Assembly (NCBI RefSeq): GCF_000160115.1
Contig: NZ_GG665867.1
Coordinates: 300,053 to 364,052 of the forward strand
DNA: 64,000 bases
Direction of reading: 5' to 3'
Source: Shuttleworthella satelles DSM 14600
Lineage (GTDB): Bacteria; Bacillota; Clostridia; Lachnospirales; Lachnospiraceae
The position numbers and the translations under genes were made by a program. Positions 2,808 through 37,215 of this stretch are shown piece by piece (position 1 is the stretch's first letter; each line of letters opens with the position of its first letter). The notes beneath the pieces are model-generated. The model searched no databases. It saw only the letters and a program-made list of their open reading frames with translations, and was not told the origin of the DNA.

Positions 2808-4266
2808 TAAGTTTTGGACGGTAGCACTTGCGGTAATTGTAAGTATTAGTTGTATTTTAGGTCTTTGGACGGTTGTTTATGCACAGGAGCAAAAATCTGA
2901 AGCTCCAACAAAAAACGAAGCTGTTCAAACGGAAGTTGAAGTAAATGTAAGGTATATCTTTGAAGATGAAAAGGTCTTTAAGGAAGAAAAGATAAAGGCT
3001 GAGAAAGGACAACTTATTGATAGCGGAGATCTTCCAATGCTCCCAGATGATATGAAATTCATTGATGAATTTCTGTTTTATGAGGTAAAGGGAGATGGAA
3101 AAGATGAGATTATCCGTAAGGTAGCAAAGATAGAGGTTAAGGATAAGGGAACGCAGACAGAGCTTTCTAAAGACGATATTTCAAAAATAGAAAAAGAGGC
3201 AAAAGAGCTTCAGGATAAACTTGATAAGTTAAATTGCGAACTTAAGGATAAAGACAAATTAAGTGATAAGCAAAAGAATAAAATTAAAGATCTTGAAGAT
3301 GAAATTGATAGCCTGAAAGAAAAAATGAAGAAAGATAAGGGAAATAAGGACTTATCAGAAGATATGAAAAAGGAAATAGATAAGCTGACGGAAAAGGTGA
3401 AAGAGCTTGAGAAAAAGGCAACTGAAACAAATAAAGCTCCTGTAACATCACAATCAGTTACACCGATTAGTCCTATTTCCGGAATTAAGACAAGTTCAGG
3501 TATTTCTCCTCAAACACCACAGACTTCTGTAAGTAGTACCGGTAAAGGCTCATCGGATTCGGTAAGCTCAGGTAATACTACAAAGGATACCGGTAAAGGC
3601 AAAACGGAAGTAAAGGAGAAAGAAAAGGAAATTCGTTATCCTAATAAGCTGACAGCTAAAATGCCTGCTAACAATAACAGCCAAGATTCAGCTATGGATG
3701 GCACAAGTAAGAGTGTAAATACCAATAAGGGAGTAGCTTCTGCACCGTCTAAGGCAAGAGGAAGTATTACGGAAAATAAGGATAATGCCAATAAGGAATA
3801 TCCGATTCATCATGGGGATAGCAGCGATAATAAAGAAACGGATCAGTATTCGGCTGATGCAAGGCAGTTTATTACCTTTCAAACGAAAAACGGTAAGACT
3901 TTTCATCTTATCATCAACCACGATGAAGATAGTGAGAATGTAATACTTCTTACGGAAGTATCTGAAGATGATTTGCTTAACATGGTGGAGAAAAAAGAAG
4001 CACCAAAGCAGGAAGTGGTAAAAGAAGAACCTGTTAAGGAAGAAGTAAAGCCTGAGAAGAAGGACGAAAAGAGTAATTTAGGAACCTATATTATTTTGCT
4101 TCTTGTAGTAGGCGGGGCATTGGGGGCAGGCTACTATTTTAAGGTTGTGAAAAAGAAAGAAGATAAAGAACTTGAAGCCTTAGAGGAGGAAGATGATGAT
4201 TTCTTTTCTGAAGCTGAAAGCGAGGAAGAAATAAATGATGCAGATGAAGTAGAAGATGAAGAATAA
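2782..4266 (+). CDS. DUF4366 family membrane protein, copy A
   Basis: A 494-residue protein with an N-terminal signal or anchor helix (WTVALAVIVSISCILGLWTVVYA, about residues 12-34). An extracellular acidic domain follows, then a long coiled coil (about 125-215), a Ser/Thr/Gly-rich linker and a second conserved patch (DARQFITFQTKNGKTFHLII, about 355-375). Near the C-terminus are a transmembrane helix (about 435-455) and an acidic tail. DUF4366 proteins are part of the conjugation module of Clostridia ICEs; a surface or channel-scaffold role is inferred from topology only. The first 122 residues equal copy B; the rest diverges slightly. Confidence 0.85.
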   Translation: MKTSLKKNNKFWTVALAVIVSISCILGLWTVVYAQEQKSEAPTKNEAVQTEVEVNVRYIFEDEKVFKEEKIKAEKGQLIDSGDLPMLPDDMKFIDEFLFYEVKGDGKDEIIRKVAKIEVKDKGTQTELSKDDISKIEKEAKELQDKLDKLNCELKDKDKLSDKQKNKIKDLEDEIDSLKEKMKKDKGNKDLSEDMKKEIDKLTEKVKELEKKATETNKAPVTSQSVTPISPISGIKTSSGISPQTPQTSVSSTGKGSSDSVSSGNTTKDTGKGKTEVKEKEKEIRYPNKLTAKMPANNNSQDSAMDGTSKSVNTNKGVASAPSKARGSITENKDNANKEYPIHHGDSSDNKETDQYSADARQFITFQTKNGKTFHLIINHDEDSENVILLTEVSEDDLLNMVEKKEAPKQEVVKEEPVKEEVKPEKKDEKSNLGTYIILLLVVGGALGAGYYFKVVKKKEDKELEALEEEDDDFFSEAESEEEINDADEVEDEE

Positions 4267-4302
4267 ACGCACCTAAAAACATATTATTTTGAGTGCAAAG
4301 TT

Positions 4303-4330
4303 AGGGCGGGAGAGTAACATCTTTCGCCCT
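4303..4330 (+). terminator. Hairpin between DUF4366 and topB (copy A)
   Basis: AGGGCG pairs with CGCCCT around a 16-base loop and is followed by ATTTTGATTT. It is a weak intrinsic terminator or processing hairpin just upstream of the topB ribosome site. It is conserved at 52568-52595 in copy B. Confidence 0.5.
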
Positions 4331-4360
4331 ATTTTGATTTATAACAGGAGGAAAACACAG

Positions 4361-6067
4361 ATGAAGTTAGTTATTGCAGAAAAGCCGAGTGTTGCAATCT
4401 CCATTACAAAGGTTATTGGAGCAAATAAAAAGAAAGACGGATATTATGAAGGAAACGGATATAGGGTGAGCTGGTGCATTGGACACCTAATTCAAATGGC
4501 AAATCCGGACGCTTATGATGAAAAATATGCTAAATGGAATATTACAGATTTACCGATTGTTCCAAAGAACTATAAGTATGAGATAGCAAAATCCACGAGG
4601 AAACAGTTTAATATCCTTAAAAAGCTGATGAATGATAAAGAAATAGATTCTGTTATCAATGCGTGCGACGCAGGTCGTGAGGGAGAAAGCATTTTTAGAC
4701 TGGTATATAACGAAGCTAAATGCAAAAAGAAGATGAAACGCCTTTGGATTTCATCTATGGAAGATAGTGCCATTAAAGAGGGCTTTGATAAGCTAAAAGA
4801 CGGAAAAGACTATGACAATCTCTTTGAATCGGCACAGGCAAGAGCGATTGCCGACTGGCTTGTCGGAATGAATATTAGTAGGCTCTACTCTTGTCTGTAT
4901 CAGCAGAATTACAGTGTTGGCAGAGTGCAGACACCTACCCTTGCCATGATTGTAAAAAGAGATGATGAGATAGCAAATTATCAGAAAGAAAAATATTACA
5001 CAGTAGAGCTTTCTACAAATGGTTTTACACTATCAACGGATAGAATTGATGATGAAGTTGCTGCTGAACAGCTCTTAAATTTAGTAGGCGATAAGATTGA
5101 AATAACCGATGTAATTCAGAAAGAAAAGATTACTAAACCTGATTTACCCTTTGACCTTACAACACTTCAAAGAGAGTGCAATAAGTATTTCGGATACAGT
5201 GCTAAACAGACACTTGACTATGCTCAAAGCCTGTATGAAAAGAAACTGATCACCTATCCAAGAACAGACAGCAGATGTTTAACGGAAGATATGATTGTAA
5301 GTACGGTCAATAACATTTTGGGTAAAAATGACTTTGATACAGAGCGTATTAAGGTAGTATTTGATTCTAAAAAGGTTACAGATCATCACGCTATTATTCC
5401 GACAGTAAGCTCACTGAGTGAAGGTTTATCAGGCATTCCTGAGAGTGAAGCAAAGGTATATAGGCTTATATCTAATAAGCTCCACGCAAGTGTGGGTTAT
5501 CCGCTTATTGAAAACACAACAAAGATTGTAGCTTCATTTGATGGTTTTGAATTTACAAGTTCAGGTAAGGTAATTAAGGATGAAGGCTTTAGCAAATACC
5601 TTAAAGAATACAAACCCAAAAAGAGTGAAGATGCTGTATTGCCTGATGTAAGTATTGGTGATGTTTTAAGTATTGAAAATAAAGAGATTAAAGAAAAATT
5701 TACTCAACCACCGAAACACTTTACTGAAGATACGCTTCTAAAGTCTATGGAGATTGCAGGAAATGAAGCCTTAGAAAAAGGTGTAGAAGTGGAAAGAAAG
5801 GGACTTGGAACACCTGCAACAAGGGCAGGAATTATTGAAAACTTAATCTATAAGGGTTTTGTCGAAAGAGATAAGAAAAATTTGATTGCCACGCATAAGG
5901 GGATCAGCCTTGTAACAATAGTATCCGATACCTTTAAGTCAGCGGAAACAACTGCAAAGTGGGAAATGGAATTAGCGGATATTGCCAAAGGGAAATCTTC
6001 CAAAGAAAAATTCTTGAAAGATATTGAAAGCGAGATACAGGAGGCGGTTTTAAAATATCGCAAGTAA
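4361..6067 (+). CDS. topB: DNA topoisomerase III of the ICE, copy A
   Basis: A 568-residue type IA topoisomerase. The N-terminal TOPRIM domain begins MKLVIAEKPSVA and has the CDAGREGE acidic motif (about residues 104-111). The active-site region reads LITYPRTDSR (Tyr about 303). ICE-borne TopB is thought to resolve linkage during transfer or replication of the element. The ATG at 4361 is chosen over the open frame from 4289, because AGGAGG lies eight bases upstream and MKLVIAEKPS is the usual family N-terminus. It is close to copy B (52626-54332), with scattered substitutions. Confidence 0.93.
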   Translation: MKLVIAEKPSVAISITKVIGANKKKDGYYEGNGYRVSWCIGHLIQMANPDAYDEKYAKWNITDLPIVPKNYKYEIAKSTRKQFNILKKLMNDKEIDSVINACDAGREGESIFRLVYNEAKCKKKMKRLWISSMEDSAIKEGFDKLKDGKDYDNLFESAQARAIADWLVGMNISRLYSCLYQQNYSVGRVQTPTLAMIVKRDDEIANYQKEKYYTVELSTNGFTLSTDRIDDEVAAEQLLNLVGDKIEITDVIQKEKITKPDLPFDLTTLQRECNKYFGYSAKQTLDYAQSLYEKKLITYPRTDSRCLTEDMIVSTVNNILGKNDFDTERIKVVFDSKKVTDHHAIIPTVSSLSEGLSGIPESEAKVYRLISNKLHASVGYPLIENTTKIVASFDGFEFTSSGKVIKDEGFSKYLKEYKPKKSEDAVLPDVSIGDVLSIENKEIKEKFTQPPKHFTEDTLLKSMEIAGNEALEKGVEVERKGLGTPATRAGIIENLIYKGFVERDKKNLIATHKGISLVTIVSDTFKSAETTAKWEMELADIAKGKSSKEKFLKDIESEIQEAVLKYRK

Positions 6068-24019: not shown

Positions 24020-25813
24020 GTGAAGAAAGATGTAAAAGTTATTAAAGGTGATACCACACTGAAAAGAACTGCATCAGGCTGTGTTGAACGCTCAATAAAG
24101 CGAGTGGCAGCTTATTGCAGAGTTAGTACAGATACTGAAGATCAGATTAACAGCTATAATTCTCAAGTAGAACACTACACAGAATTTATAAAGAAAAATA
24201 AAGAGTGGACACTTGCAGGAATATATGCTGATGAAGCGATAACCGGTACACAGGTTGACAGAAGAATTGATTTTCAAAGACTAATCAATGATTGTATGAA
24301 CGGCGATATAGATATGATAATTACAAAGTCTATATCAAGATTTGCAAGAAATACATTAGACACCTTAAAGTATGTAAGAAAGTTGAAAGAGTTTAATGTT
24401 GCGGTCTTTTTTGAAGAGGAAAACATAAACACCTTAACAATGGACGGAGAGTTGCTTTTAACAATTTTAAGTTCAGTTGCGCAACAGGAAGTAGAGAACA
24501 TTTCAGCCAATGTCAAAAAAGGTTTGAGAATGAAGATGGAAAGAGGAGAAATGGTCGGCTTTCAAGGGTGTTTAGGCTACGACTATGATCCGGAAACTAA
24601 AAGCATTTCTATCAATGAAAAAGAAGCTGAGATTGTAAGATATATTTTCAGAAGATATATTGAAGGTGTTGGCGGTATGGTAATCTCCAGAGAACTTGAA
24701 GAACAAGGATATTTATCGCCAAGAGGAAATAAAAGATGGACGGAAACAACAGTTTTAGGAATCATAAAAAACGAGAAATATAAAGGGGATCTTATGATGG
24801 GAAAGACCTATACGGTTGATCCTATTTCAAAGAGAAGATTGGATAATTTCGGAGAACAGGATAAGTTTTATATAGAGAACCATCACGAGCCAATCATTTC
24901 GGAAGAAGATTTTGAAAAAGCTCAAGGTATTAGATTAAGAAGGTCAAAAAACAGAAATACCGTTGCTAATAATGGCGGTAAGAGAGAAAAGTATTCAAGA
25001 AAATATGCTTTTAGCAGCATGCTTGAATGTGGATTTTGCGGTCATAATCTTTCAAGAAGAAATTGGCATTCGAGTTCAGAGTATACAAAAGTTATATGGC
25101 AGTGTGTCAATGCTACTAAAAACGGAAAGAAGTATTGTCCGCATAGTAAAGGGATTGAAGAAGAAGCCATAGAAAAAGCATTCATGGAAAGCTATCGTCA
25201 GGTATGCCACAATAATGTGGAAATTACTAATGAATTCCTTAAAACTGTGGAAGAAGAATTGAAAGACAACAGTTTAGCTAAAGACCTGAAGAAGATAACA
25301 AATCAACTTGATAAGATACTAAAGAAAGAAAAGGATCTTGTTGAGTTAAGGCTGAATGAGTCAATCAGCATGGATATATATCAGGATAAGTATAATGAAA
25401 TAGCTATTAGTAAAGAGAAATTACTTGCAGAAAAAAGGACTTTAGAAGTAACACTCACTGATGAAAAAGCGTTGAAGAAAAGGCTCGAGGGGTTTAAAAA
25501 ATTACTTGAGTCCAATAAATATCTTGAGGAATTTGATAGGGCAGTATTTGAAAGTATAGTAGATAAAATCATCATTGGGGGAACTAACGATGAAGGTGAA
25601 ATTGATCCTGCAATGATTACTATCATATATAAGACTGGAAAAAAAGATTCTCAGGACGGAAGATTATTCAAGAGCAGAAGAAAAAATGCCAAGGAAGTTA
25701 ATGAGGAAACTGACAACAAATTGTATCCTCATTCAAGCGACGAGGTCAATAATTTGTGTTCCTATCCTATGGACAACACATGTGGAGACGGTGGTGTTGA
25801 TGTCAAGGATTAA
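24020..25813 (+). CDS. Large serine recombinase (ICE integrase, TndX/TnpX type)
   Basis: A 597-residue large serine recombinase. The resolvase domain has AAYCRVSTD with catalytic Ser36 and later SRFARNTLD. The recombinase domain (about 185-300) includes EAEIVRYIFRRYIEG. A zinc ribbon has CGFCG and WQC...CPH cysteines (about 337-375), then a coiled coil (about 410-510). The start is GTG at 24020 behind AAAGGAGG. Such enzymes both excise and insert the element. The last codons lie on a sequence that, in another frame, encodes the C-terminus of RlmD, placing the crossover site at the gene's own 3' end. Confidence 0.93.
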   Translation: MKKDVKVIKGDTTLKRTASGCVERSIKRVAAYCRVSTDTEDQINSYNSQVEHYTEFIKKNKEWTLAGIYADEAITGTQVDRRIDFQRLINDCMNGDIDMIITKSISRFARNTLDTLKYVRKLKEFNVAVFFEEENINTLTMDGELLLTILSSVAQQEVENISANVKKGLRMKMERGEMVGFQGCLGYDYDPETKSISINEKEAEIVRYIFRRYIEGVGGMVISRELEEQGYLSPRGNKRWTETTVLGIIKNEKYKGDLMMGKTYTVDPISKRRLDNFGEQDKFYIENHHEPIISEEDFEKAQGIRLRRSKNRNTVANNGGKREKYSRKYAFSSMLECGFCGHNLSRRNWHSSSEYTKVIWQCVNATKNGKKYCPHSKGIEEEAIEKAFMESYRQVCHNNVEITNEFLKTVEEELKDNSLAKDLKKITNQLDKILKKEKDLVELRLNESISMDIYQDKYNEIAISKEKLLAEKRTLEVTLTDEKALKKRLEGFKKLLESNKYLEEFDRAVFESIVDKIIIGGTNDEGEIDPAMITIIYKTGKKDSQDGRLFKSRRKNAKEVNEETDNKLYPHSSDEVNNLCSYPMDNTCGDGGVDVKD

Positions 25814-25820: not shown

Positions 25821-26018
25821 AACTCGTAGAAAGCCCGGAACTACAAGAATTTGCGGGAGATGAAAGTTATGTCAAACTTCGGAACTCAGGGAGTCTGTTT
25901 TTACGTGAATGAGGGTTCTGTAAATATGATTTGAACACTATAGCATTGAGTCAATATTGCAAAAAAATGGCAAAGCGCTTGCAAAGAGAAACCCATCTTT
26001 GACAGTTAATTAAGAGTG

Positions 26019-26060
26019 AGAAGCCCACAAGTCGCGTAGTTACGCCATTTGTGGGCTTCT
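26019..26060 (-). terminator. Long hairpin terminator at the end of the IS1634-like element
   Basis: A near-perfect stem of twelve pairs (AGAAGCCCACAA / TTGTGGGCTTCT) with an inner GCGTA/TACGC stem. It lies downstream of the minus-strand transposase stop and would also block transcription entering the element. Confidence 0.7.
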
Positions 26061-26088
26061 GTTCTGTTTCTAAATTCTAGCTATATTT

Positions 26089-27798
26089 CTACTTTCTTGT
26101 TACTGTTAAAATCTTTTTCATATTTCTCTGAGACACAATCTCATAATCCGTTCTGAAACCAAATACATCGTGCAGTTTATCCGTAAGATCAGTGCGAGTG
26201 TACTCCGGGATATACCCCTCACCGGGCACTACCAGCATGTTCATCTCTTTCAGCGTTCTTATGATGTTTTCGCTGGTATAGCTCTCGCCTAGCTTCTTCT
26301 CCAGAATGCGGTAAAGGATCAGTGCTGTGAAGCAGGTGATGAAATGTGCCGTGATTCGATCTTTTCGGCTCAGATATACCGGTCGAGCCTGGAATTCGCT
26401 TTTCATAATCCGGAAGCATTCTTCTATCTGCCATCGTTTTTGGTTGATGCTGATGATCGTTGCGGCATCATCTTCAAGGTTTGTACATACGGCGTAGAAG
26501 CCGTCATAATGTTCTTCCTCTCTGGCAACATTTTCATCCATCGAAGCGATCATTTTGTCTGCAATCTCACCGTCAGAGGTACAGTGATCCTGACGGATAA
26601 ACCGTTTGGGATCGTTCGGTCGCTTTCTTTTCAGAGAAGAGGGGTTGTCGACAAGTTTTTGGGCACGTTCAAGCTGCCGACTGCGTATTTTTCTCATATA
26701 GTCCCGGTATTGGAAGGAGAAGGTAACGATAAGATGCTGCTCAAGGCCGTCCTCGTTAATCCATCGGTCTTTATAGAAGGTTTTCTCATAGTTCTCATTC
26801 TCATCTAATTCACTAAGCTTGTACTCTCTTTTGTCCCCGATCAGATGCCATCCATCCGCATCAAGACAGTAATCCTTGAGAAATCCTTTTAGCTTCTTGA
26901 TCGGTTGCGTTGTTACAAATTTCCGGTTTGGAGTGCTGTTGAAGATACGATTCGAGACGGATGATAGTCCGGCAACTGTACAGACAATAAACTTCGTCAT
27001 TCCAAAGTCGGTAAGGATCTTTTTCTCCAGCGGCTTCATTGAGGGCTGTTCATTTTCATTTCCGTTAAAGACGGAGAAGGTGAGTGGAATACCATCTGCA
27101 TCCATAAACAGACCCATCTGGACAATCGGATTCGGTCGATTTTCCTTGGAATGACCATATTTTCTGAAATCATCAGCTTCTTCAATCTCAAAGTAATAGT
27201 TGGTGCAGTCATAGTAAAGGACTCTCTTGTGCCGAGTCAGCACCATTTCAGAATTCTTGTAAAGCTGAGCCTGGAAAAAGTCGTTTTCTTTTGCGAGGAT
27301 CTCCAGCGCCCGGTAAACGTGATGGAACTTACAGTCTGGCTTTTCAAGAAACTTCCGTGAAATTTCAAGAGAAGATCTCTTGGATCCCGGATAAATAATC
27401 CTGGAGAAGAGCAGCATCGACAGGATGTGATTCAGATCATACTCGAACTTATACTTTTCAGCGATCTGCGCACAGATGTCGTGGATTTTTAAATCATAGT
27501 AGATGTCCTTGAGGAAGAGATAGCCGACATTTACGCTGCGGCAGGTATCTTTTTTAATCCTGGCAGAAGAGGAATACTTGATTATGATGTCCTTTTTTGA
27601 AGCTTTTTCTTCTGCAGAGCGTTTGGCGGCATACTGCTTAGCCCATTCTAGAGGAGTGAGATCTCCGCAAATCTTTAGGAGATCGTCTTCGGCACCGATC
27701 TTCTCTATTGTTTTCGTAGTGGATTTACCATTCACCCAAACAGATTTACTCAGGTAATAAATAGTCTGATTCTTAGATTTTGATACGGACACCTTCAT
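26089..27798 (-). CDS. IS1634-family DDE transposase, probably inactive
   Basis: A 569-residue transposase with an N-terminal YLSKSVWVNGKSTTKTIEKIG start typical of IS1634-like proteins. The DDE domain has YYDCTNYYFE (first Asp, about 196), and QKRWQIEECFRIMKSEF carries the final Glu (about 468). The segment where the family usually reads DAGL or DRGL reads TVAGLSS here (about 277): a valine codon GTT in place of an expected GAT. If so, the second catalytic aspartate is lost and this copy cannot transpose itself. AGGAGG precedes the ATG at 27798. Confidence 0.85.
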   Translation of the reverse strand: MKVSVSKSKNQTIYYLSKSVWVNGKSTTKTIEKIGAEDDLLKICGDLTPLEWAKQYAAKRSAEEKASKKDIIIKYSSSARIKKDTCRSVNVGYLFLKDIYYDLKIHDICAQIAEKYKFEYDLNHILSMLLFSRIIYPGSKRSSLEISRKFLEKPDCKFHHVYRALEILAKENDFFQAQLYKNSEMVLTRHKRVLYYDCTNYYFEIEEADDFRKYGHSKENRPNPIVQMGLFMDADGIPLTFSVFNGNENEQPSMKPLEKKILTDFGMTKFIVCTVAGLSSVSNRIFNSTPNRKFVTTQPIKKLKGFLKDYCLDADGWHLIGDKREYKLSELDENENYEKTFYKDRWINEDGLEQHLIVTFSFQYRDYMRKIRSRQLERAQKLVDNPSSLKRKRPNDPKRFIRQDHCTSDGEIADKMIASMDENVAREEEHYDGFYAVCTNLEDDAATIISINQKRWQIEECFRIMKSEFQARPVYLSRKDRITAHFITCFTALILYRILEKKLGESYTSENIIRTLKEMNMLVVPGEGYIPEYTRTDLTDKLHDVFGFRTDYEIVSQRNMKKILTVTRK

Positions 27799-28083
27799 GA
27801 TGTTGTTCCTCCTATATATCCATTATACAACATATAGCCTAATATAGCTATCGTAAATCCGATGAAATTTGACAAAAAAACAGGCTTTTCAAGGCCTGTA
27901 GGGTTTTTAGAATTATTCAACTGTCAAAGTCCCGAACTGTCAAAGTCCCAATTATAGCAAGATGCAAATTTTTACTAAAATTATGGCATTTCTTTTTTGG
28001 TGGTAAAATATAAATAATAAATTAATTTATTCGGTTTATGGTGGTATAATGAAATGAAGACTGAAAATAGGAGGAGTGCGCTC

Positions 28084-29427
28084 TTGGGCAGGAAACGGTA
28101 TAAGCGGAAAGATGTGTCAAAAGAAAAAACCGCGGCTCTCGGCATCGACGATTTGTTCGCGCTGAAGACGAGCGATGACAATCACTTTTATGCCGTGCAT
28201 GAGCGTTACTTTTCCGATGACAAGGTGGCGTGCCCGGCTTGCGGATCGACTAAAACACGGTGTTCAAAAGTCGTGAAGCGAAACTTCAAAGACATATTGT
28301 GGGATAAGCCATCAGGCAAGGATGAGGAAGAAAAGAAGTTCCGTGTGGTAGACCTGACCTTTTATCAGCGATACCTTCGCTGCGACGGCTGCAACAACAG
28401 CGTCTTCCCGGAGCCTATTGATTTCGGAGATAAAGGATGCCGCTATACCAACAGGCTGTCAGACGACTTGGCAGATGGGACATTCCGCTTCTCTTATAAG
28501 AAGGTTTGCGATTACTACGGTGTCCCGGCGTCTACTGCCTCTATCGGACCTATTATGCGCAGAAGGATTCAATACCGTGAATCACTATTGCTGCCGGTCA
28601 GCACACCGCAAAGACTTGGAATCATGGAAGTAGTGTTCTTTCGTGAATCCCGACCTATCGTATATGCGCTGCGAGATGACGGCGTGTACTGCCTGGATAT
28701 CCTTGAGGACTCCCCGGAAGAAACTGTACTGACTTTTTTGCGTACATTGGACACGAACGAGGTTGACACGGTTTTCATCGATCCAGTTGAAAGCATACGC
28801 AGTGCTGCAGCGACCGCGTTTCCGGGCGCAAATATTGTGGTGTCAGATGAGTGCCTGCTTCGCTATGCCAGAAACGCAATGCTTGAAATCATACATTCGG
28901 ATGGAAAGCGGTTTCCTGTGAAATTCAAGGATGCGGCTCTCACCATGCAAGACAAGCATCTTCAAAGCGATTTCGAGCGGCAGCAGATAAAAGACGGCAT
29001 GGAAAGCCGACCAAGATTGAAATCTGCGTATGAGAGGCATCAGGCTTTCATGGAACTTCTATCTGGTGACTGGAAGACAGAGGATTTGGAGAAATGGGTG
29101 GATGCGCTGCCGGACGATTTGCCGGGGTTCGATCCCCTTGTCGATGTGATCGATTTGTTTAAGCAGGAAATCTCCGGCTACCTTGAATTAGAAGAAAAAC
29201 CGCCGGATTTCTATCCAACGGCATTGCAGGCGGTGTGTGAAGCATTCCGAGGAATGCCCCACTGCATATTCGATGTGTTGAGGGCGCGATGTTTCCTTAC
29301 TATCGCTTACGACACCATCGAAGAGAATGGCGAAAAATATCGGCTTGGGATACATACCACCAGGCTGACTCAAAAAATGAATGAGATTTCGAACAACATC
29401 AAGGAGGCAAGAGAATATGGACTCTAA
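28084..29427 (+). CDS. ISL3-transposase-like protein coupled to the type I restriction operon
   Basis: About 447 residues. Two CxxC zinc pairs (CPACGS, CDGCNN) open an ISL3-style N-terminus, followed by a helix-turn-helix (FRFSYKKVCDYYGVPASTASIG). The DDE-like core follows (VDTVFIDPVESIRSAA; FPGANIVVSDECLLRYARNAM), and the end reads MNEISNNIKEAREYGL, matching the ISL3 motif with the last Glu. The first Asp of ISL3 (GID) reads GIM. There are no terminal repeats, and the gene stop overlaps the hsdM start by 11 bases, so it is an operon member rather than a mobile copy. Start: a TATAAT at 28045-28050 makes ATG 28054 unlikely; TTG 28084 follows AGGAGG. Confidence 0.75.
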   Translation: MGRKRYKRKDVSKEKTAALGIDDLFALKTSDDNHFYAVHERYFSDDKVACPACGSTKTRCSKVVKRNFKDILWDKPSGKDEEEKKFRVVDLTFYQRYLRCDGCNNSVFPEPIDFGDKGCRYTNRLSDDLADGTFRFSYKKVCDYYGVPASTASIGPIMRRRIQYRESLLLPVSTPQRLGIMEVVFFRESRPIVYALRDDGVYCLDILEDSPEETVLTFLRTLDTNEVDTVFIDPVESIRSAAATAFPGANIVVSDECLLRYARNAMLEIIHSDGKRFPVKFKDAALTMQDKHLQSDFERQQIKDGMESRPRLKSAYERHQAFMELLSGDWKTEDLEKWVDALPDDLPGFDPLVDVIDLFKQEISGYLELEEKPPDFYPTALQAVCEAFRGMPHCIFDVLRARCFLTIAYDTIEENGEKYRLGIHTTRLTQKMNEISNNIKEAREYGL

Positions 29428-31204
29428 CGATAAGATCAAGGCAGTTGGCATCAATATTAAAGAAAAGGCAAACCTGATCTGGAATGTGGCTAACTCCCTG
29501 TTTGGTGCATACAAGCCCCATGAGTACGGTCTTGTTATCCTGCCGATGGCTGTGATTAAACGATTCCACGACTGCCTTCTCCCCACCCATGATAAAGTGC
29601 TTGCGACATACGAAAAGATCAAGCATCTCGCTGTGAAAGAAGGATTCCTTCGGACGGCCACGGGCGGTTACCGTTTCTACAATGTCAGCCCCTTTACTTT
29701 CGAGCGGCTGAAAGCTGACCCAGAGAACATCAAGGCAAATTTCGAATCCTACATCAACGGCTTTTCCGACAATGTCATAGACATTCTTGCAAACATGGGA
29801 TTCTTTAACCAGATCGACCGCATGAACGATGCTGGGGTTCTGTATCAGGTCATCAGCGACTTCTGCGAAGATAGCGCAGACATGAGTCCTGACAAAATCT
29901 CTGCTGTCGATATGGGCTATGTATTTGAAAATCTCGTCCAGAGATTTTCCGAAAGCTACGACGAAGAAGCCGGAGCACACTTTACCAGCAGGGACATCAT
30001 TTATCTGATGTGTGACATGTTGACAATGGAGGCTGATTTTTCGAGCTCCGATAGCCCTGCCAAGACCGTATATGACATGGCAATGGGAACAAGCCAGATG
30101 CTTACCTGCATGGAGGAACGCATAAAATCGCTGGATGCGGAAGCACAAATCATCTGCTATGGTCAGGAAATTAATCCGTTTACTTTTGGTATCGCTAAAG
30201 CGGACGTGCTTATCCGCGGCGGTGATCCTGACAACATGCGGTTCGGCGATACATTAAATGACGATAAGTTCAAGGGATACACCTTCGATTATTGTATTTC
30301 CAATCCGCCCTTTGGCATCGACTGGAAGCGCGAGGCAGCGGACGTTGAGAAGGAGCACAAAAAGGGTGATGCTGGACGTTTCGGAGTCGGACTTCCTGCG
30401 AAGTCGGATGGGCAAATGCTCTTTATGCTGAACGGTATAGCCAAGCTGAAAGATACCGGCCGAATGGCAATTATCCAGAATGGATCTTCTTTATTTACAG
30501 GGGATGCCGGAAGCGGTCCAAGTGAAATCAGGAGATACATTATAGAGAATGACTGGCTGGATGCCATTGTTCAGCTGCCGAATGACAGTTTCTACAATAC
30601 CGGGATTGCCACCTATGTATGGATCATCACAAAAGATAAGCCTGTGACGCATCGAGAGCAGGTTCTGCTGATCGATGCCAGCGGCTGCTATGAGCAGCGC
30701 AGGAGCCCAATCGGTAATAAGCGTGTAGATATCACTGAAGTTTGCCGTGATCTTATTGTCAAAGCCTACAGCGACTACGACAGCAAGACTTACGAAAAGA
30801 AAATTGACAGCAATACAGCGATTGTTGTTAAAAGCAAAAGGTTGGATTCGATTTCGCTCGGCTATAACAAAATCACGGTGGAAAGCCCACAGCTTGATGA
30901 TGACGGGGAACCAATCCTCAAAAAGGGGAAGAAAGTCGCTGATACATCCAAGCGTGATACGGAAACCGTACCTCTGGATGAAGATATGGATGTTTACTTT
31001 GAAAGGGAAGTTCTTCCTTATCGTCCGGGTGCATGGATAGACAAATCGAAGACAAAGGTTGGTTACGAGATTCCATTTACCAAGACATTTTATGAATACC
31101 TTGAAATGGAGTCGGCCGATGAAATAGCCAAGCGCATCGAAGAGCATGAACACAGCTTGATGCAGAAACTGCGGGCGCTGTTCGGAGGTGAGCAGAATGA
31201 GTGA
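29417..31204 (+). CDS. hsdM: Type I restriction-modification methyltransferase subunit
   Basis: A 595-residue HsdM. The N-terminal HsdM_N-like helical domain (KEKANLIWNVANSLFGAYKPHEYG...) is followed by an N6-adenine methyltransferase domain. Motif I reads DMAMGTSQML, unusual against the common DP.CGTGG(F/M)L, and motif IV is an intact NPPF (about 298). The ATG at 29417 has GGAGG ten bases upstream; the longer frame from 29381 lacks a ribosome site. It overlaps the ISL3-like gene by 11 bases and hsdS by 8. With HsdS it methylates host sites. Confidence 0.92.
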   Translation: MDSNDKIKAVGINIKEKANLIWNVANSLFGAYKPHEYGLVILPMAVIKRFHDCLLPTHDKVLATYEKIKHLAVKEGFLRTATGGYRFYNVSPFTFERLKADPENIKANFESYINGFSDNVIDILANMGFFNQIDRMNDAGVLYQVISDFCEDSADMSPDKISAVDMGYVFENLVQRFSESYDEEAGAHFTSRDIIYLMCDMLTMEADFSSSDSPAKTVYDMAMGTSQMLTCMEERIKSLDAEAQIICYGQEINPFTFGIAKADVLIRGGDPDNMRFGDTLNDDKFKGYTFDYCISNPPFGIDWKREAADVEKEHKKGDAGRFGVGLPAKSDGQMLFMLNGIAKLKDTGRMAIIQNGSSLFTGDAGSGPSEIRRYIIENDWLDAIVQLPNDSFYNTGIATYVWIITKDKPVTHREQVLLIDASGCYEQRRSPIGNKRVDITEVCRDLIVKAYSDYDSKTYEKKIDSNTAIVVKSKRLDSISLGYNKITVESPQLDDDGEPILKKGKKVADTSKRDTETVPLDEDMDVYFEREVLPYRPGAWIDKSKTKVGYEIPFTKTFYEYLEMESADEIAKRIEEHEHSLMQKLRALFGGEQNE

Positions 31205-32420
31205 AACAGTTCGATACACCGACATGAAGGACAGCGGAATCAAATGGATTGGCGAGGTTCCTGCAAGCTGGAATGTCCGGACGCTCTATCAGCTTGCGAC
31301 AAGGGTGAATAACAAGAATTCTGACCTCGCTGAACAGAATCTGCTCTCTTTAAGCTATGGAAAAATAAAGCGCAAGGACATCAATACCAAGGACGGTCTG
31401 CTGCCTGCTTCTTTTGATGGATATAACATCATCGAAGCCGGTGACATTGTGCTGCGCCTTACTGATCTTCAGAATGACCATACGAGTTTGCGTGTCGGGC
31501 AGGCTACAGAACGTGGCATCATTACTTCGGCATATACTACTCTGCAGCCGATCAACCCGTCGAATGCCAGATATCTGTATTATTTGCTTCATGCTTTTGA
31601 CCTCAAAAAAGGTTTTTACGGCATGGGTTCAGGAGTGAGACAAGGCTTGAACTATGACGAGGTTAAAGAGCTGCGATCAGTTCTTCCTTCACAGATAGAG
31701 CAAGATGCGATTGTTTCTTATCTGGATGATGTTTGTCAGCAGATAGATTTGATAATCGAGGAAGCAAAATCCAGCATTGAGGGCTATAAAGGGTGGCGGT
31801 TATCGACCATCAAAGAGGTGACTACTCATGGCATCTCCAAAGACGTTGAAATGGTAGATACAGAAATATCGTGGGCAAAATCGATTCCTTCGAATTGGAA
31901 TATTGGAAAAGGGCATTATTTTGCCTCAACATATAGTGGTAGAGCGATCCCTGGTGATGGTACTACAGGAAGCATACCTGTTTATGGCTCAGGTGGTTCT
32001 TTTAAGAAAACAGAGAATCCGTTATACGCAGGAGAAGCTGTCCTATTTGGACGAAAGGGTACTCTCGGAAAGCCTATATATGTAAATAGACCTTTCTGGG
32101 CTGTCGACACTATTTATTATGCCGTGTGCAATGAAAAATGGATGCTACCCAAATATCTATACTATATGCTTACGATATTTGATTGGGAGTCTTTCATTAC
32201 ACATACTGCCCTTCCAAGCATTGTGGCGAATGAAGTCTTTTCATCGGTGTTCATTTGTCCCCCAATATCAGAGCAACTACAAATTATAAAAAAATTAGAC
32301 TGCGTATGTGACAATGCAGATACTGCGATTGAGGCAACTGAACATTTGATTGAAGAACTTGAGTTATATAAGCGTTCTCTAATTTATGAGGCTGTTACAG
32401 GAAAGCGAAAGGTGGTGTGA
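31197..32420 (+). CDS. hsdS: Type I restriction-modification specificity subunit
   Basis: A 407-residue HsdS with two target-recognition domains. Each opens with the family's W-I-G-E-V-P-x-S-W style motif (GIKWIGEVPASWNVRTL, about 13; ISWAKSIPSNWNIGKG, about 222). Each ends in a conserved helix (LPSQIEQDAIVSYLDDVCQQID; PPISEQLQIIKKLDCVCDNAD) that spaces the half-sites. ATG 31197 is preferred to the in-frame GTG at 31188 because GGAGGTG lies just upstream. The recognition sequence cannot be inferred. No invertible or duplicate hsdS is present. Confidence 0.92.
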   Translation: MSETVRYTDMKDSGIKWIGEVPASWNVRTLYQLATRVNNKNSDLAEQNLLSLSYGKIKRKDINTKDGLLPASFDGYNIIEAGDIVLRLTDLQNDHTSLRVGQATERGIITSAYTTLQPINPSNARYLYYLLHAFDLKKGFYGMGSGVRQGLNYDEVKELRSVLPSQIEQDAIVSYLDDVCQQIDLIIEEAKSSIEGYKGWRLSTIKEVTTHGISKDVEMVDTEISWAKSIPSNWNIGKGHYFASTYSGRAIPGDGTTGSIPVYGSGGSFKKTENPLYAGEAVLFGRKGTLGKPIYVNRPFWAVDTIYYAVCNEKWMLPKYLYYMLTIFDWESFITHTALPSIVANEVFSSVFICPPISEQLQIIKKLDCVCDNADTAIEATEHLIEELELYKRSLIYEAVTGKRKVV

Positions 32421-32423
32421 CCT

Positions 32424-35400
32424 ATGAATGAGAAGAAAGGATTTCAGGATCGTGCCAGAGCGTATTATGATGGAGTTCAAAGCATGGATGAATCCGAAAA
32501 AAGATTTGAGGAATTCATAGAAGACTACCTCATTTCTGAAGAAGGCGGGTGGACGAAGGCGACGGATGCCGGACTTCGTGGCGAGGAAAGCCGTGGCATG
32601 AATCTGGACATTGTGACGCTGACGGACTTCGTAAAAAGCACCCAGCCGATGGCATGGAAGCGCTTCGAGCGGATGTGTACCATCAATCCGGTACGCCAGT
32701 TCTACAAGTCGTTCGAGAACGCTGTTGTTCAGAATGGGCTCATTTCCGTTCTGCGTTATGGGTTCAAGCATCGCGGCGTCAACTTCCGTGTGTGCTACTT
32801 CAAGCCGGAATCAGAACTGAATGAACTGGCGGTGGCGAACTATCAGAAAAATGTCTGCCAATGCATCCGGCAGTGGCATTATTCCGAGCAGAACAAGAAC
32901 AGCATAGATATGCTGCTCGCCGTCAACGGCATCCCGGTCATTGCCATCGAACTGAAGAATCAGCTGACCGGGCAGTCTGTGGATGACGCAAAAAAGCAGT
33001 GGGCATATAACCGGAATCCGAAAGAACCGGTCTTCAGTTTTAATAAGCGGATACTGGCTTACTTCGCCTGCGATCTTTACGATGTTTACATGACCACGCG
33101 GCTTGAAGGTCCGATGACAAACTTCCTTCCATTCAATCAGGGGAGCAACGGCGCAGGGCATGACGGCGGCGCAGGTAATCCGCCTAATCCGACGGGCGGG
33201 TATGTGATCTCCTACTTCTGGGAGAATGTTCTGCAAAAGGACAAGCTCCTGGATATCCTTCAAAAGTTCATCAGCTATGAGAAGACCGAGAAGAAGGAAA
33301 TCCTGCCTGACGGCTCTGCCAACATCAAGAAGACAGAGAAAATCATCTTCCCGCGCTACCATCAGCTCGATGTTGTGCGGAAACTGGTGGATCATGTCCG
33401 CGAGAACGGACCGGGACACAATTACCTCATCCAGCATAGCGCGGGCTCCGGCAAATCAAACTCCATCGCATGGACAGCTTACCGAATGGCGAGTCTGCAT
33501 AATGCCGAAAACGAAGCTGTATATGATAGCGTGATCGTCGTGACAGACCGCCGTGTACTTGACCAGCAGCTGCAGGCGACAATTTCTAGCTTTGACCACA
33601 CGCTCGGCAGCGTAGAAACCATCGACGATAAGAAAAGCTCGAAGGACCTTCTGAACGCAATCAACAAGGGTAAGCGCATTATTGTCACTACCCTGCAGAA
33701 GTTCCCAGTCATTTATGAACAGGTCAATTCGTCTGTTGGCAAGCACTATGCCATCATCGTGGACGAAGCGCACAGCAGCCAGACCGGGCAATCGGCGATG
33801 AAACTGAAAGCCGCTCTCGCTGACGTCTCGGATGCGCTTGAAGAATATGCGGAACTTGAGCAGAAAGCGGTGGACGAGATTGAGGCAAAGGACATCCTCG
33901 TTCAGGAAATGCTCAGTCAGGGGAAACACAGTAATCTGAGCTTCTTCGCTTTCACAGCCACTCCGAAAGGCAAAACGCTTGAAATTTTCGGCGAGCCCCA
34001 GCCGGACGGTTCCTTCCATCCCTTCCACATCTACTCCATGCGTCAGGCAATCGAAGAAGGATTTATTCTGGACGTTCTGGCAAACTACACCACCTATAAG
34101 ATGTGCTACCAGATTGCAAAGAATGTGCCGGACAATCCCGACGTTCCCACATCAAAAGCAGTACGCACCATCCGCCGCTATGAGGAACTGCATCCGCATA
34201 ATCTCGCGCAAAAGGCTGCTATCATTGTTGAGACGTTCCGGGATGTTACCAAGCACAAGATTGGCGGTCTCGGAAAGATGATGGTCGTAACCGCCTCCAG
34301 GCTTGCGGCGGTTCGCTACTACCACGAAATCAAACGGTATCTGGAACAGAATGATTATGACGATGTGGAAATCATGATCGCGTTCAGCGGAAGCCTGAAA
34401 GACCCGGATGATCCGGACGGTCCGGAATACTCCGAAAGTTCCATGAATGTAGACAGCAATGGAAACCGCGTTAAAGAGAGCCAAACAAAGAATGTCTTCC
34501 ACGATGAAGGGGACATCCTGATTGTTGCAGAGAAATACCAGACGGGATTCGACGAGCCGCTGCTCCATACCATGATTGTGGATAAGGAACTTAGGGACGT
34601 TAAAGCGGTTCAGACTTTGAGCCGGTTGAACAGAACCTATCCCGGAAAAGTGGACACCTTCGTTCTGGATTTCGTAAATGATGTTGACCGCATCAGAGAG
34701 GCTTTCCAGCCGTTCTATCAGGAAACGAGCCTTGATGAAGAGATTAATTTTGACCTGATTTACACCACGCAGAATATCCTTCATGGATTTAATGTTTATT
34801 CCGAAGAAGATATTGAGGCAGTATCGCAGATATACTTTGACCCGGATATTCGCAAGGCAAATGCCACACAGGGGAAGATTTCAAATATCCTCAAGCCTGT
34901 TGCTGACCGGTACAATCAGCTGAATCAGGAACAGCGGTATCAGTTCCGCAGAGAAGTCCGAGCTTTTGTGAAATGGTATAATTACATTTCACAGATAACG
35001 AGGATGTTTGATAAGGAACTTCATAAGGAATACATCCTGTGCTCATACCTCGCGAAACTGCTGCCCGCCGATAAAACACAGCCGTTCGACCTCGATAACC
35101 GCGTAAAACTGGAATACTATCGGCTTGAAAAAACCTTCGAGGGCGCGATTGAACTGGAGGCTGAACCGGGCTCGTGGAAGCCTACGCAGCCAAAAAAAGC
35201 CGGCGGACAAAAAGACAGGATGAGTCCTCTGGATGAGATTATTGCCAGGATTAACGAGGAATTTTTCGGAGACTTTACGGATGCAGATCGCGTTATGGTA
35301 GACACGCTCTATTCCAAGATGCGCAAGGATGCAAAGGTGAAAAAGGCTGCCAAGAGCAACGACAGGCAGGTTTACGAACACAGCATCTTCCCCGGAATCT

Positions 35401-35540
35401 TTGACACGACCGCACAGGAAGCCTACATGGAGAACACGGAGGCTTATGAGCAGCTCTTCCTCGATGCGGAAAAATACAGAGTCATACAACAGGCTCTTGC
35501 TGAACGGCTCTACAAGGAGCTGCATGGAGAAAACAAGTAA
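32424..35540 (+). CDS. hsdR: Type I restriction endonuclease subunit
   Basis: A 1,038-residue HsdR. The PD-(D/E)xK nuclease domain ends in VIAIELKNQ (about 172-180). The superfamily 2 translocase has [10 protein letters not shown] (Walker A, about 337), VDEAHSSQ (motif II, about 446), FTATP (motif III) and [13 protein letters not shown] (motifs V-VI, about 707 and 731). A helical C-terminus binds the methylase. It cuts unmodified DNA after translocation. It starts three bases after hsdS and appears intact. Confidence 0.93.
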
Positions 35541-35716: not shown

Positions 35717-35792
35717 TGATGCTGTATAAATAAAGTTGACATCTTATTCGCAAGGATTTCATTATAATCAAAAAAATAAGGAGGCGTTTACG

Positions 35793-36131
35793 GTGGCAAC
35801 TAACAGACAGTACGATCAGGAGTACAAAATCCAGACAGTTAAGTTGGCAAAAGAGATTGGCCAGGCAAAAGCTACACATGAACTCGGCATCCCCAAAAAC
35901 ACGCTCTATACATGGATACGCGCTAATAGGCTCGGAAATCTGGATCTTGGAGCGGGATCTCAGACCCCCAAAAGTGCTATGACCCTGAATGAGGAGCTGA
36001 TCACCTTACGTAAGCAGGTCAAAGATCAGGATAAGGAAATTCGTCGCCTTAAAGAAGAAAATGAGTTCCTGGAGGAAGACAGCGCTTTTTTCGCCGCGAG
36101 CCGTCTGAAGTCAGCAAAAATGAAAGGCTGA
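35793..36131 (+). CDS. IS3-family transposase OrfA, copy 1
   Basis: 112 residues, GTG start at 35793 behind AAGGAGG; the open frame extends upstream to 35736 without a ribosome site. Helix-turn-helix plus leucine-zipper layout as in copy 0, with small differences (Thr for Ala, THELG for ARELG). The A-rich stretch near 36115 is the likely -1 frameshift region joining it to OrfB. Confidence 0.9.
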   Translation: MATNRQYDQEYKIQTVKLAKEIGQAKATHELGIPKNTLYTWIRANRLGNLDLGAGSQTPKSAMTLNEELITLRKQVKDQDKEIRRLKEENEFLEEDSAFFAASRLKSAKMKG

Positions 36132-36160
36132 AATATATCGCTGTTAAGACAGAAGGCGGC

Positions 36161-37036
36161 ATGATGAAAGGAAAACTTACATTCTACTGTCGGATGCTCC
36201 ATGTGAGCTGCCAGGCATTCTATAAATACCTGCAACGTAAGGATCGGCCTTGGAAATATCAGAAGCTGGCCGATGCTATGCGGGATATCCTAAAGGAAGA
36301 TGAATGTAATGATACCTATGGTCGTTCCAGGATGCGTGATGCTCTTCTGCAGAAGAAGCCGAAGAATGTCGATATCCCGAGTGAGCGGACCGTCTATCGA
36401 ATAATGGAAGAAATCGGCATCAGTCATCGTCCAAAGCGTAAACCAAATGGAATAACGAAAGCCGACAAGGCTGCTCGTAAATCGGATGATCTGCTCAAGC
36501 GGGATTTCAGGTCAACAGAGCCACTGACAAAATGTGTTACGGACATAACCGAAATCAAGGCGAGTGATGGTAAACTCTATGTTTCTGCCATGTTTGACTG
36601 CTTTGATCTGGCTGTCTTAGGACTGGCAATGGCTACCAACATGAAGGCTCCGTTGTTTGCCCGAACCCTGAGGAATGCTCATAAGGCTTACCCGGGGATC
36701 GAAGGTGCGATTTGCCATAGCGATCGTGGAGTACAGTACACCAGTGATTGCTACCGTAGAGCCGTCCAGGACTGCCATATAACACAGAGCATGAACAGTG
36801 ATGGTGGCCGTTGCCATGATAATACTCGTTGTGAGAGCATGTGGGCGAGAATGCAATCTGAACTCTTATATGATTGCTATGACACCGAGAAGATGACTGT
36901 AACTGAGCTAAAAGAGCTTATCTGGCGTTACTACATGAGCTACTGGAATAACCGTCGAATCTGTTCCGCAAATGATGGCCTTCCACCCATGGTCAAGAGA
37001 CAACAATACGATTCATCTTTACAGGAAGCAGCTTAG
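36161..37036 (+). CDS. IS3-family transposase OrfB (DDE integrase), copy 1
   Basis: A 291-residue retroviral-integrase-like catalytic subunit with an HTH_21-like N-terminus (DECNDTYGRSRMRDAL). The DD35E residues are in TKCVTDITEIKA (Asp about 127), CHSDRGVQYTS (Asp about 188) and NTRCESMWARM (Glu about 224). It lies in the -1 frame relative to OrfA, as usual for the family. It appears intact, so this copy could be active. Confidence 0.92.
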   Translation: MMKGKLTFYCRMLHVSCQAFYKYLQRKDRPWKYQKLADAMRDILKEDECNDTYGRSRMRDALLQKKPKNVDIPSERTVYRIMEEIGISHRPKRKPNGITKADKAARKSDDLLKRDFRSTEPLTKCVTDITEIKASDGKLYVSAMFDCFDLAVLGLAMATNMKAPLFARTLRNAHKAYPGIEGAICHSDRGVQYTSDCYRRAVQDCHITQSMNSDGGRCHDNTRCESMWARMQSELLYDCYDTEKMTVTELKELIWRYYMSYWNNRRICSANDGLPPMVKRQQYDSSLQEAA

Positions 37037-37215
37037 GGTTGTAAATCCTTGAGGAAAATCTGTCAACCATTATTGACAATATCAAGAACATCTATGTGTC
37101 AATTGAAAAAGCTGAATTATCAATCAGAAGAAAAATGAGAATCATTGGCTGTATAGCATCTGGGTTGAAGTCTTCTTTGAGAATCACTGGATAAATGAAA
37201 ACGAGAGAATAAAAA

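Follow-up and report, generated by a model that had tools for sequence, protein, structure and literature searches.

The window analysed here, 64,000 nucleotides of the genome of Shuttleworthella satelles DSM 14600 (contig NZ_GG665867.1, positions 300,053 to 364,052, forward strand), harbours a type I restriction-modification (RM) operon in which hsdM, hsdS and hsdR are preceded by a gene for a 447-amino-acid (447-aa) protein related to ISL3-family transposases (Table 1). This first gene likely represents a domesticated ISL3 transposase, employed as autogenous regulator of its own operon via direct repeats in the promoter. As to the sign of regulation, the arrangement of the promoter suggests that the protein is probably a repressor. 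The following features are observed: (i) a conserved position directly 5' of hsdM with overlapping reading frames, (ii) loss of catalytic residues, (iii) purifying selection, and (iv) operator-like repeats co-occurring with the gene. From these we infer that the 447-aa protein binds the promoter repeats, that it represses instead of activating, and what physiological role it serves. A first-pass annotation, made from the letters of the window, had proposed a domesticated transposase acting as regulator or accessory subunit of the RM system. The present results support this proposal, and the regulator is favoured over the accessory subunit because of the promoter repeats, which had not been noticed before.

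Catalytic residues, domains and predicted fold

ISL3 homology spans most of the length of the protein. The open reading frame (ORF) from TTG 28084 to 29427 is matched above cut-off by PF01610 (ISL3 transposase; 39 bits, E 7.9e-10) and, far under the cut-off of 180 bits, by NF033550 (75 bits), in agreement with the earlier reading of an ISL3-like transposase gene; all 25 of 25 family members match both models at E up to 0.01. According to the alignment, the first catalytic Asp is replaced by Met181, as read before, the second is retained as Asp233, and the terminal Glu, which the first-pass annotation had counted among the kept motifs, is replaced by Thr. At four diagnostic columns the protein reads M-D-S-T versus D-D-D-E in 8 of 8 ordinary ISL3 transposases; based on knowledge of the RNase H fold, we take the second column to be the catalytic Asp2 and the third to be an extra conserved Asp. 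The context of the Glu column is PDFYPTALQ as compared to TNAYTESLN in ordinary ISL3 transposases. Among 30 aligned family members (the window protein plus 29 loci; L104 and L096 left out), Asp1 is lost in all 30, Asp2 is kept in all 30 and Glu is lost in 29, the sole Glu (L098) standing in an unrelated sequence context.

The zinc finger and the helix-turn-helix (HTH) of the earlier reading are indeed present. The zinc cysteines are kept in 29/29 members with letters at the respective alignment columns, and the HTH region, delimited by alignment and model, is the best conserved part of the protein (0.77 versus 0.54–0.64 for other parts; 16 near members). The Pfam models for the ISL3 zinc ribbon and HTH did not score in the 447-aa protein; among 25 family members they gave just 2 and 4 matches, respectively. 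The AlphaFold model of the protein (mean predicted local distance difference test score 90.5, predicted template modelling score 0.83) finds its best fold match in the ISCth4 transposase (PDB 6xg8 and 6xgx; Z 13.4 and 12.6; Foldseek E 5.7e-8 and 1.8e-7). ISCth4, an IS256-type enzyme, differs in sharing only 11–15 % sequence identity and in being a transposase caught in strand-transfer complexes. The structural comparison covered 1000 chains, with ISCth4 and retroviral integrases among the matches, a set in which the absence of other folds means little. A sequence search of solved structures with the 447-aa protein was uninformative, its best hit being a designed protein at E 0.011.

With ISL3-family transposases the protein shares the zinc cysteines, the HTH region and the RNase H-like core with helical insertion, whereas catalytic Asp1 and Glu are missing and no terminal inverted repeats (TIRs) were found. 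Judged from these residues, an ISL3-derived protein appears to have lost strand-transfer catalysis and to have kept zinc ribbon and HTH. The search for TIRs around gene or operon comprised 12 tests on the window and five relatives; best pairs matched at 13–16 of 22 positions, a score reached by 2 to 30 of 30 shuffles (lowest value, 2/30, for the operon of L049), as compared to 19–20 of 22 matches and 0/30 shuffles for four ISL3 elements serving as positive controls. The earlier statement that terminal repeats are lacking is thereby borne out, and of the two findings named beforehand as speaking against domestication, i.e., inverted repeats flanking the homologues or an intact DDE triad, neither was made at gene or operon or in the alignment.

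Recurrence directly upstream of hsdM

Recurrent placement directly before hsdM had been set beforehand as the test of the proposal. A genome scan seeded with the HsdM of the window provided 79 hsdM loci (best of 83 relatives), in 31 of which the dead-transposase gene lies directly 5' of hsdM, while it is absent in 43 and five are cut at the contig edge. Twenty-nine of the 31 carriers were found in BLAST or tblastn searches, for which the window protein and a pair of ordinary ISL3 proteins served as queries, the match of L106 being weak (E 0.003, via an ordinary ISL3). Two were added later, L104 on the basis of alignment, family models and tree, and L096 as a fragment of 115 aa, located at the edge of a contig and assigned through its likeness to L098 by eye. 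Identity to the 447-aa protein ranges from 17 to 78 % (24 loci in the alignment). In the window, the end of the stop codon (29427) and the ATG of hsdM (29417) have 11 bases in common, exactly as annotated before, and an overlap of 4 to 38 bases between the stop and the closest in-frame start codon of hsdM is seen in 32/32 cases (window plus 31 loci; in distant clades this start codon is a GTG or ATG located three codons 5' of the HsdM match). The gene before hsdM is not a stray insertion sequence (IS). Thirty of the 31 carriers are labelled Bacillota and one, a metagenome-assembled genome, Bacteroidia; many are labelled as coming from gut or rumen. A family-seeded scan of a viral collection retrieved four contigs, all four with the same gene order and both repeats; three of them agree in identity and repeats with L050, L102 and L052, and possibly derive from the same genomes.

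Until the HsdM-seeded scan the gene looked solitary, so that the early misses are attributed to short search patterns and sparse sampling. The 447-aa protein as query yielded no match in genome contigs and viral contigs, the genus being represented by the host genome alone among the sampled genomes, and only two other matches (L005 and L045, both intact ISL3s) in the family, order and class samples. Plasmid and phage searches retrieved only places annotated as ISL3 transposases, or nothing. A family-profile search of 392 order-level genomes, with scoring limited to about four candidates per genome, revealed the window copy as sole member; the other matches with readable catalytic columns (L172 left out) keep the Asp residues. 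Within 299 family genomes, 16 besides the host genome contain HsdM relatives; BLAST of stretches from 12 of these and from three plasmid loci (L006-L008) detected no ISL3-like gene. In the HsdM tree described below, at least two of the 12 HsdM loci (L079, L121) do not belong to the carrier clade.

One locus (L120) was rejected as family member. Its ISL3 gene (4235-5848) lies 152 bases before hsdM, but the catalytic motifs are intact by eye; L120 is counted among the 43 controls lacking the dead-transposase gene. Two further related operons lack the dead transposase but have a different long ORF ahead of hsdM (577 and 747 aa; L035, 10227-11960; L036, 9760-12003), with its end immediately or some 60 bases 5' of hsdM; these ORFs possibly represent additional accessory or regulatory genes.

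Direct repeats in the promoter

The TATAAT box (28045-28050) and the ribosome site (28070-28074), both assigned to the gene by the first-pass annotation, are kept in most of 13 near relatives aligned. A consensus promoter scan did not list this promoter. The -35 region of several relatives reads TTGATT or TTGACY, including good boxes such as TTGACT.

In 21/21 near members (L070, which is cut, left out), the start codon is preceded by a pair of TGGTGG copies whose flanks resemble each other (approximately RTTYNNWWTWTGGTGGYAWAWT), spaced by 41 bases in 7 members and by 50–51 bases in 14. In the window, the proximal repeat lies 41 bases downstream of the distal one, within the -35/-10 spacer and touching TATAAT; among relatives the proximal TGGTGG site is conserved better than the distal one. 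TGGTGGYA is absent from all 43 hsdM loci without the gene, and the paired pattern occurs only once in the entire host genome, namely at this promoter (reversed control, 0). A blind direct-repeat test (mark: no more than one shuffle in 100 equalling the observed repeat) was positive for 19/30 carriers versus 0/43 controls, with 0/100 shuffles as good in case of the window promoter; several of the 30 carriers are near-copies of one another and do not represent 30 independent cases. Distant clades have repeats of their own kind by eye, e.g., three copies around TTAACTTARTGGTGGGYA in L104 and copies of ATGGTTAT in promoters of the Gemmiger group, not all of which pass the blind test. Judged from its sequence, the repeat pair of the promoter looks as an operator for the operon's own first protein would be expected to look.

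Evolutionary history and selection

A quick HsdM tree was built from 69 rows of 80 including the window, leaving out L087, L088, L094, L107, L114, L118, L120, L122 and L127 (cut or unsuitable) and dropping L108 and L123 for stops. Carriers and non-carriers are separated on this tree by 3 state changes, as compared to about 23 with shuffled labels. L057 and L068 have an HsdM within the carrier clade (81 % identity to that of the window in case of L057), lack the gene and also lack the TGGTGG motif.

The transposase-like proteins form one group with support 100/100 (26 rows versus 34 other ISL3 rows; 56 of the 60 rows distinct), which the common loss of catalytic residues could have helped to pull together. 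A few of the 34 ordinary rows, e.g., L143 and L150, are decayed. An earlier protein tree with lower support for the group (52/33) held a wrong non-ISL3 frame (L148) and few ordinary ISL3s. Selection on the gene is strongly purifying: dN/dS (non-synonymous to synonymous substitution rates) amounts to 0.05–0.16 in the four of 11 pairs with a finite value, the proportion of non-synonymous differences is far below that of synonymous ones in six saturated pairs, and one pair is identical. Internal stops are absent in 29 of 30 aligned members (one partial), L093 having one early stop. One group and purifying selection together indicate that the gene has long been kept for a purpose other than transposition.

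Proposed regulatory function and alternatives

In the proposed mechanism, the catalytically dead transposase would keep zinc ribbon and HTH for DNA binding and would bind both direct repeats of its own promoter, the proximal one within the core promoter. Binding would repress, or at least autogenously tune, transcription of its own gene and hsdMSR, such that restriction could be held in check on entry of the operon into a new host as well as at steady state.

The nearest working analogue is RptR (RMS-proximal transcriptional regulator), described as a small protein which is encoded directly before a type I RM operon and represses its promoter; its sites are reported as three direct repeats with the palindrome TAGCTA, two of them overlapping the -10 box, and as conserved together with RptR (PMC12255303). 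Likewise, the present gene is located directly upstream of a type I RM operon, and its promoter has direct repeats of which one touches the -10 box. In contrast, the present protein is a 447-aa ISL3 derivative, from which RptR is set apart by its description as small, the term transposase not being used for it (PMC12255303), and the present site is TGGTGG-centred, about 20 bases long and repeated at a distance of 41–51 bases. TAGCTA is absent between 27951 and 28083, as read directly in the sequence. By analogy, the family may do the job of RptR with a different protein and different sites.

Several points weigh against this reading. Eleven of the 30 loci remain below the mark of the blind test (L050, L051, L053, L058, L086, L091, L092, L093, L098, L106 and L117); L050, L051, L053 and L058 still have the TGGTGG pair, and the repeats of L106 and L117 are poor by eye. 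The proximal repeat coincides in part with an extended -10 box, so that its conservation is to some extent that of the promoter. The repeats could be bound by a host factor instead. In a comparison of 15 repeat sites with 8 ends of live ISL3 elements (2000 shuffles), two sites of L104 were borderline (33 and 44 shuffles as good), the proximal sites of the window (111) and of L119 (128) resembled the ends weakly, and ten other sites showed no significant likeness (225 or more). Strong resemblance was found for the distal site of L100 only (0/2000).

Controller (C) proteins are short HTH proteins. In type II systems they are described as the product of the RM system's own regulatory gene, acting on its transcription (PMC12707154), and RM-encoded control of own transcription is likewise what we propose for the present protein. 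An activator or dual activator-repressor resembling type II C proteins would occupy the distal site first and aid RNA polymerase, then fill the proximal site and shut the promoter off. The tandem sites, with the distal one upstream of the core promoter, and the weak -35 hexamer of the window (TTAATT) would be in line with it; the location of the better conserved proximal site in the -35/-10 spacer, touching the -10 box, and the good -35 boxes of relatives (e.g., TTGACT) make it unlikely. Since it overlaps with the autogenous-control part of the preferred reading, the probabilities assigned to the two are not additive.

Also improbable is an accessory subunit, i.e., a protein which would join HsdM/HsdS and direct or adjust modification or restriction, its amount being matched to theirs by translational coupling. 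The stop-start overlap with hsdM in 32/32 cases and the co-inheritance with HsdM (3 state changes versus about 23) agree with such a role. However, non-synonymous divergence of the transposase-like gene exceeds that of HsdM by a factor of 2.2 to 4.6 in 8/10 pairs (the exceptions being L111/L055 with 1.8 on few changes and L066/L069 with about equal values; an eleventh pair is near-identical), HsdM of carriers is closely related to an HsdM without the gene (L057, 81 %), and the promoter repeats would be left unexplained.

A decaying transporter IS, i.e., an ISKpn25-type element with hsdMSR that recently lost mobility and left a functionless gene, draws on the existence of active ISL3 elements with hsdM-S-R passengers (PMC5142620, PMC8796155). 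We consider it very improbable in view of 29/30 aligned members without internal stop, strong purifying selection, catalytic loss throughout one group, terminal repeats not found, and a gene that is first rather than last in the operon. An anti-transposon factor, the dead transposase competing for terminal repeats of live ISL3 elements or poisoning multimers, would account for the retained DNA-binding modules and for the resemblance of the L100 distal operator to a live ISL3 end, but is hardly credible, as live ISL3s are uncommon in sampled relatives (above cut-off in 10/150 family genomes) and the fixed coupling to hsdM would be unexplained.

Autogenous repression remains the preferred reading. 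Apart from a few cases, little work has addressed how type I RM operons are controlled upon entering a new cell, and the authors of the RptR study remark on scarce study of control for defence systems in general (PMC12255303). If true, the family would, next to RptR, represent a further class of regulators dedicated to type I systems, chiefly in Bacillota. It is easily overlooked, as automatic annotation would probably designate its members ISL3 transposases. Searches of open-licence PubMed Central literature on ISL3 passengers, ISKpn25, domesticated or inactive transposases, type I regulation and controller proteins returned no title or abstract opening that describes the family.

Relation to live ISL3 elements carrying RM genes

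The hsdM of ISKpn25 is termed a passenger gene of a mobile element (PMC5142620), and four ORFs in 8154 bases are described for this element (PMC8796155). In ISKpn25 and ISSm4 (the latter by annotation), hsdM-hsdS-hsdR are followed by the transposase as last gene; both have TIRs with 19 of 22 matches and intact D-D-E residues. With the present operon they share an ISL3-type protein clustered with type I RM genes and direct repeats before the first gene (a criterion proposed here), those before hsdM being 46 bases apart in both elements. They differ in having intact D-D-E residues, TIRs and the transposase gene at the end, whereas the present gene is first and shows none of these. The repeats before the first gene were matched by 0 (ISKpn25), 0 (Lysinibacillus phage element), 2 (ISSm4) and 7 (Geoalkalibacter) of 200 shuffles. 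The Azospira test (28/200) was discarded as uninformative, the site not lying before hsdM.

Based on these similarities, descent of the operon from an RM-carrying ISL3 transposon is plausible. The more specific scenario, in which the family arose once from such a transposon, the dead transposase becoming a repressor and the operators deriving from transposase-binding repeats which live elements such as ISKpn25 would already possess around the hsd promoter, is put forward tentatively and falls a little short of an even chance. If true, the regulatory role would be older than the loss of mobility, and the family would offer a clean case of a DNA transposase turned into a bacterial transcription factor, with ISKpn25 and ISSm4 showing a likely starting point.

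Further arrangements of ISL3 genes with RM or methyltransferase genes were encountered. On plasmid pGSUB1 of Geoalkalibacter subterraneus (L009, 7783-16170), hsdM, hsdS, a hypothetical gene, hsdR and an intact ISL3 transposase gene are bounded by 22-base inverted repeats with 20 matches, representing an RM-carrying ISL3 element on a plasmid of the Desulfuromonadales. In Lysinibacillus phage vB_LspM-01 (L048, 5428-7405), a small gene annotated as DNA methyltransferase is directly followed by an intact ISL3 transposase gene; inverted ends are present, and a pair of similar direct repeats precedes the methyltransferase gene. In ISSm4, on a Serratia marcescens plasmid (L046, 2365-11305), hsdM and hsdS are separated by a PDDEXK nuclease gene. 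In Azospira sp. I09 (pAZI09; L011, 553-8248), PDDEXK nuclease and nucleotidyltransferase genes precede hsdS, hsdR and the ISL3 gene; hsdM is not annotated within the stretch taken.

Features of the operon and genomic surroundings

Table 1 Coordinates of the operon, its promoter and the parts of the transposase-derived protein in the window
Feature	Position	Strand	Remarks
Distal direct repeat, candidate operator	27984..28011	+	core TGGTGG 27998-28003
-35-like hexamer TTAATT	28022..28027	+	by eye; 17 bases before -10
Proximal direct repeat, candidate operator	28025..28052	+	core TGGTGG 28039-28044
-10 box TATAAT	28045..28050	+	
Ribosome-binding site AGGAGGA	28069..28075	+	before TTG; GGAGG at 28070-28074
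ISL3-transposase-derived gene, first of operon	28084..29427	+	ORF; 447 aa, TTG start, catalytic residues lost
Zinc-ribbon part	28231..28392	+	Cys 50, 53, 100, 103
Helix-turn-helix part	28447..28584	+	about residues 122-167, by alignment and model
RNase H-like (DDE) core with helical insertion	28600..29337	+	residues 173-418
hsdM, type I methyltransferase	29417..31204	+	ATG at 29417
hsdS, type I specificity subunit	31197..32420	+	ATG at 31197, overlaps hsdM
hsdR, type I restriction subunit	32424..35540	+	

DNA homology to the closest relatives begins at about 27950-27998 and ends near the hsdR stop. The RM operon is closely flanked on both sides by IS elements with inverted ends, which belong to different families: an IS1634-family element (25997-27929; transposase 26089-27798, minus strand) on one side and an IS3-family element (35735-37067; ORFs 35736-36131 and 36161-37036) on the other. 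Elsewhere in the host genome (2.17 Mb), a fragment of an ordinary ISL3 transposase is present (G000:C5:282016-282390; frame of 134 aa). Within the window, an ORF of 597 aa (24020-25813) resembles a large serine recombinase, as read by eye.

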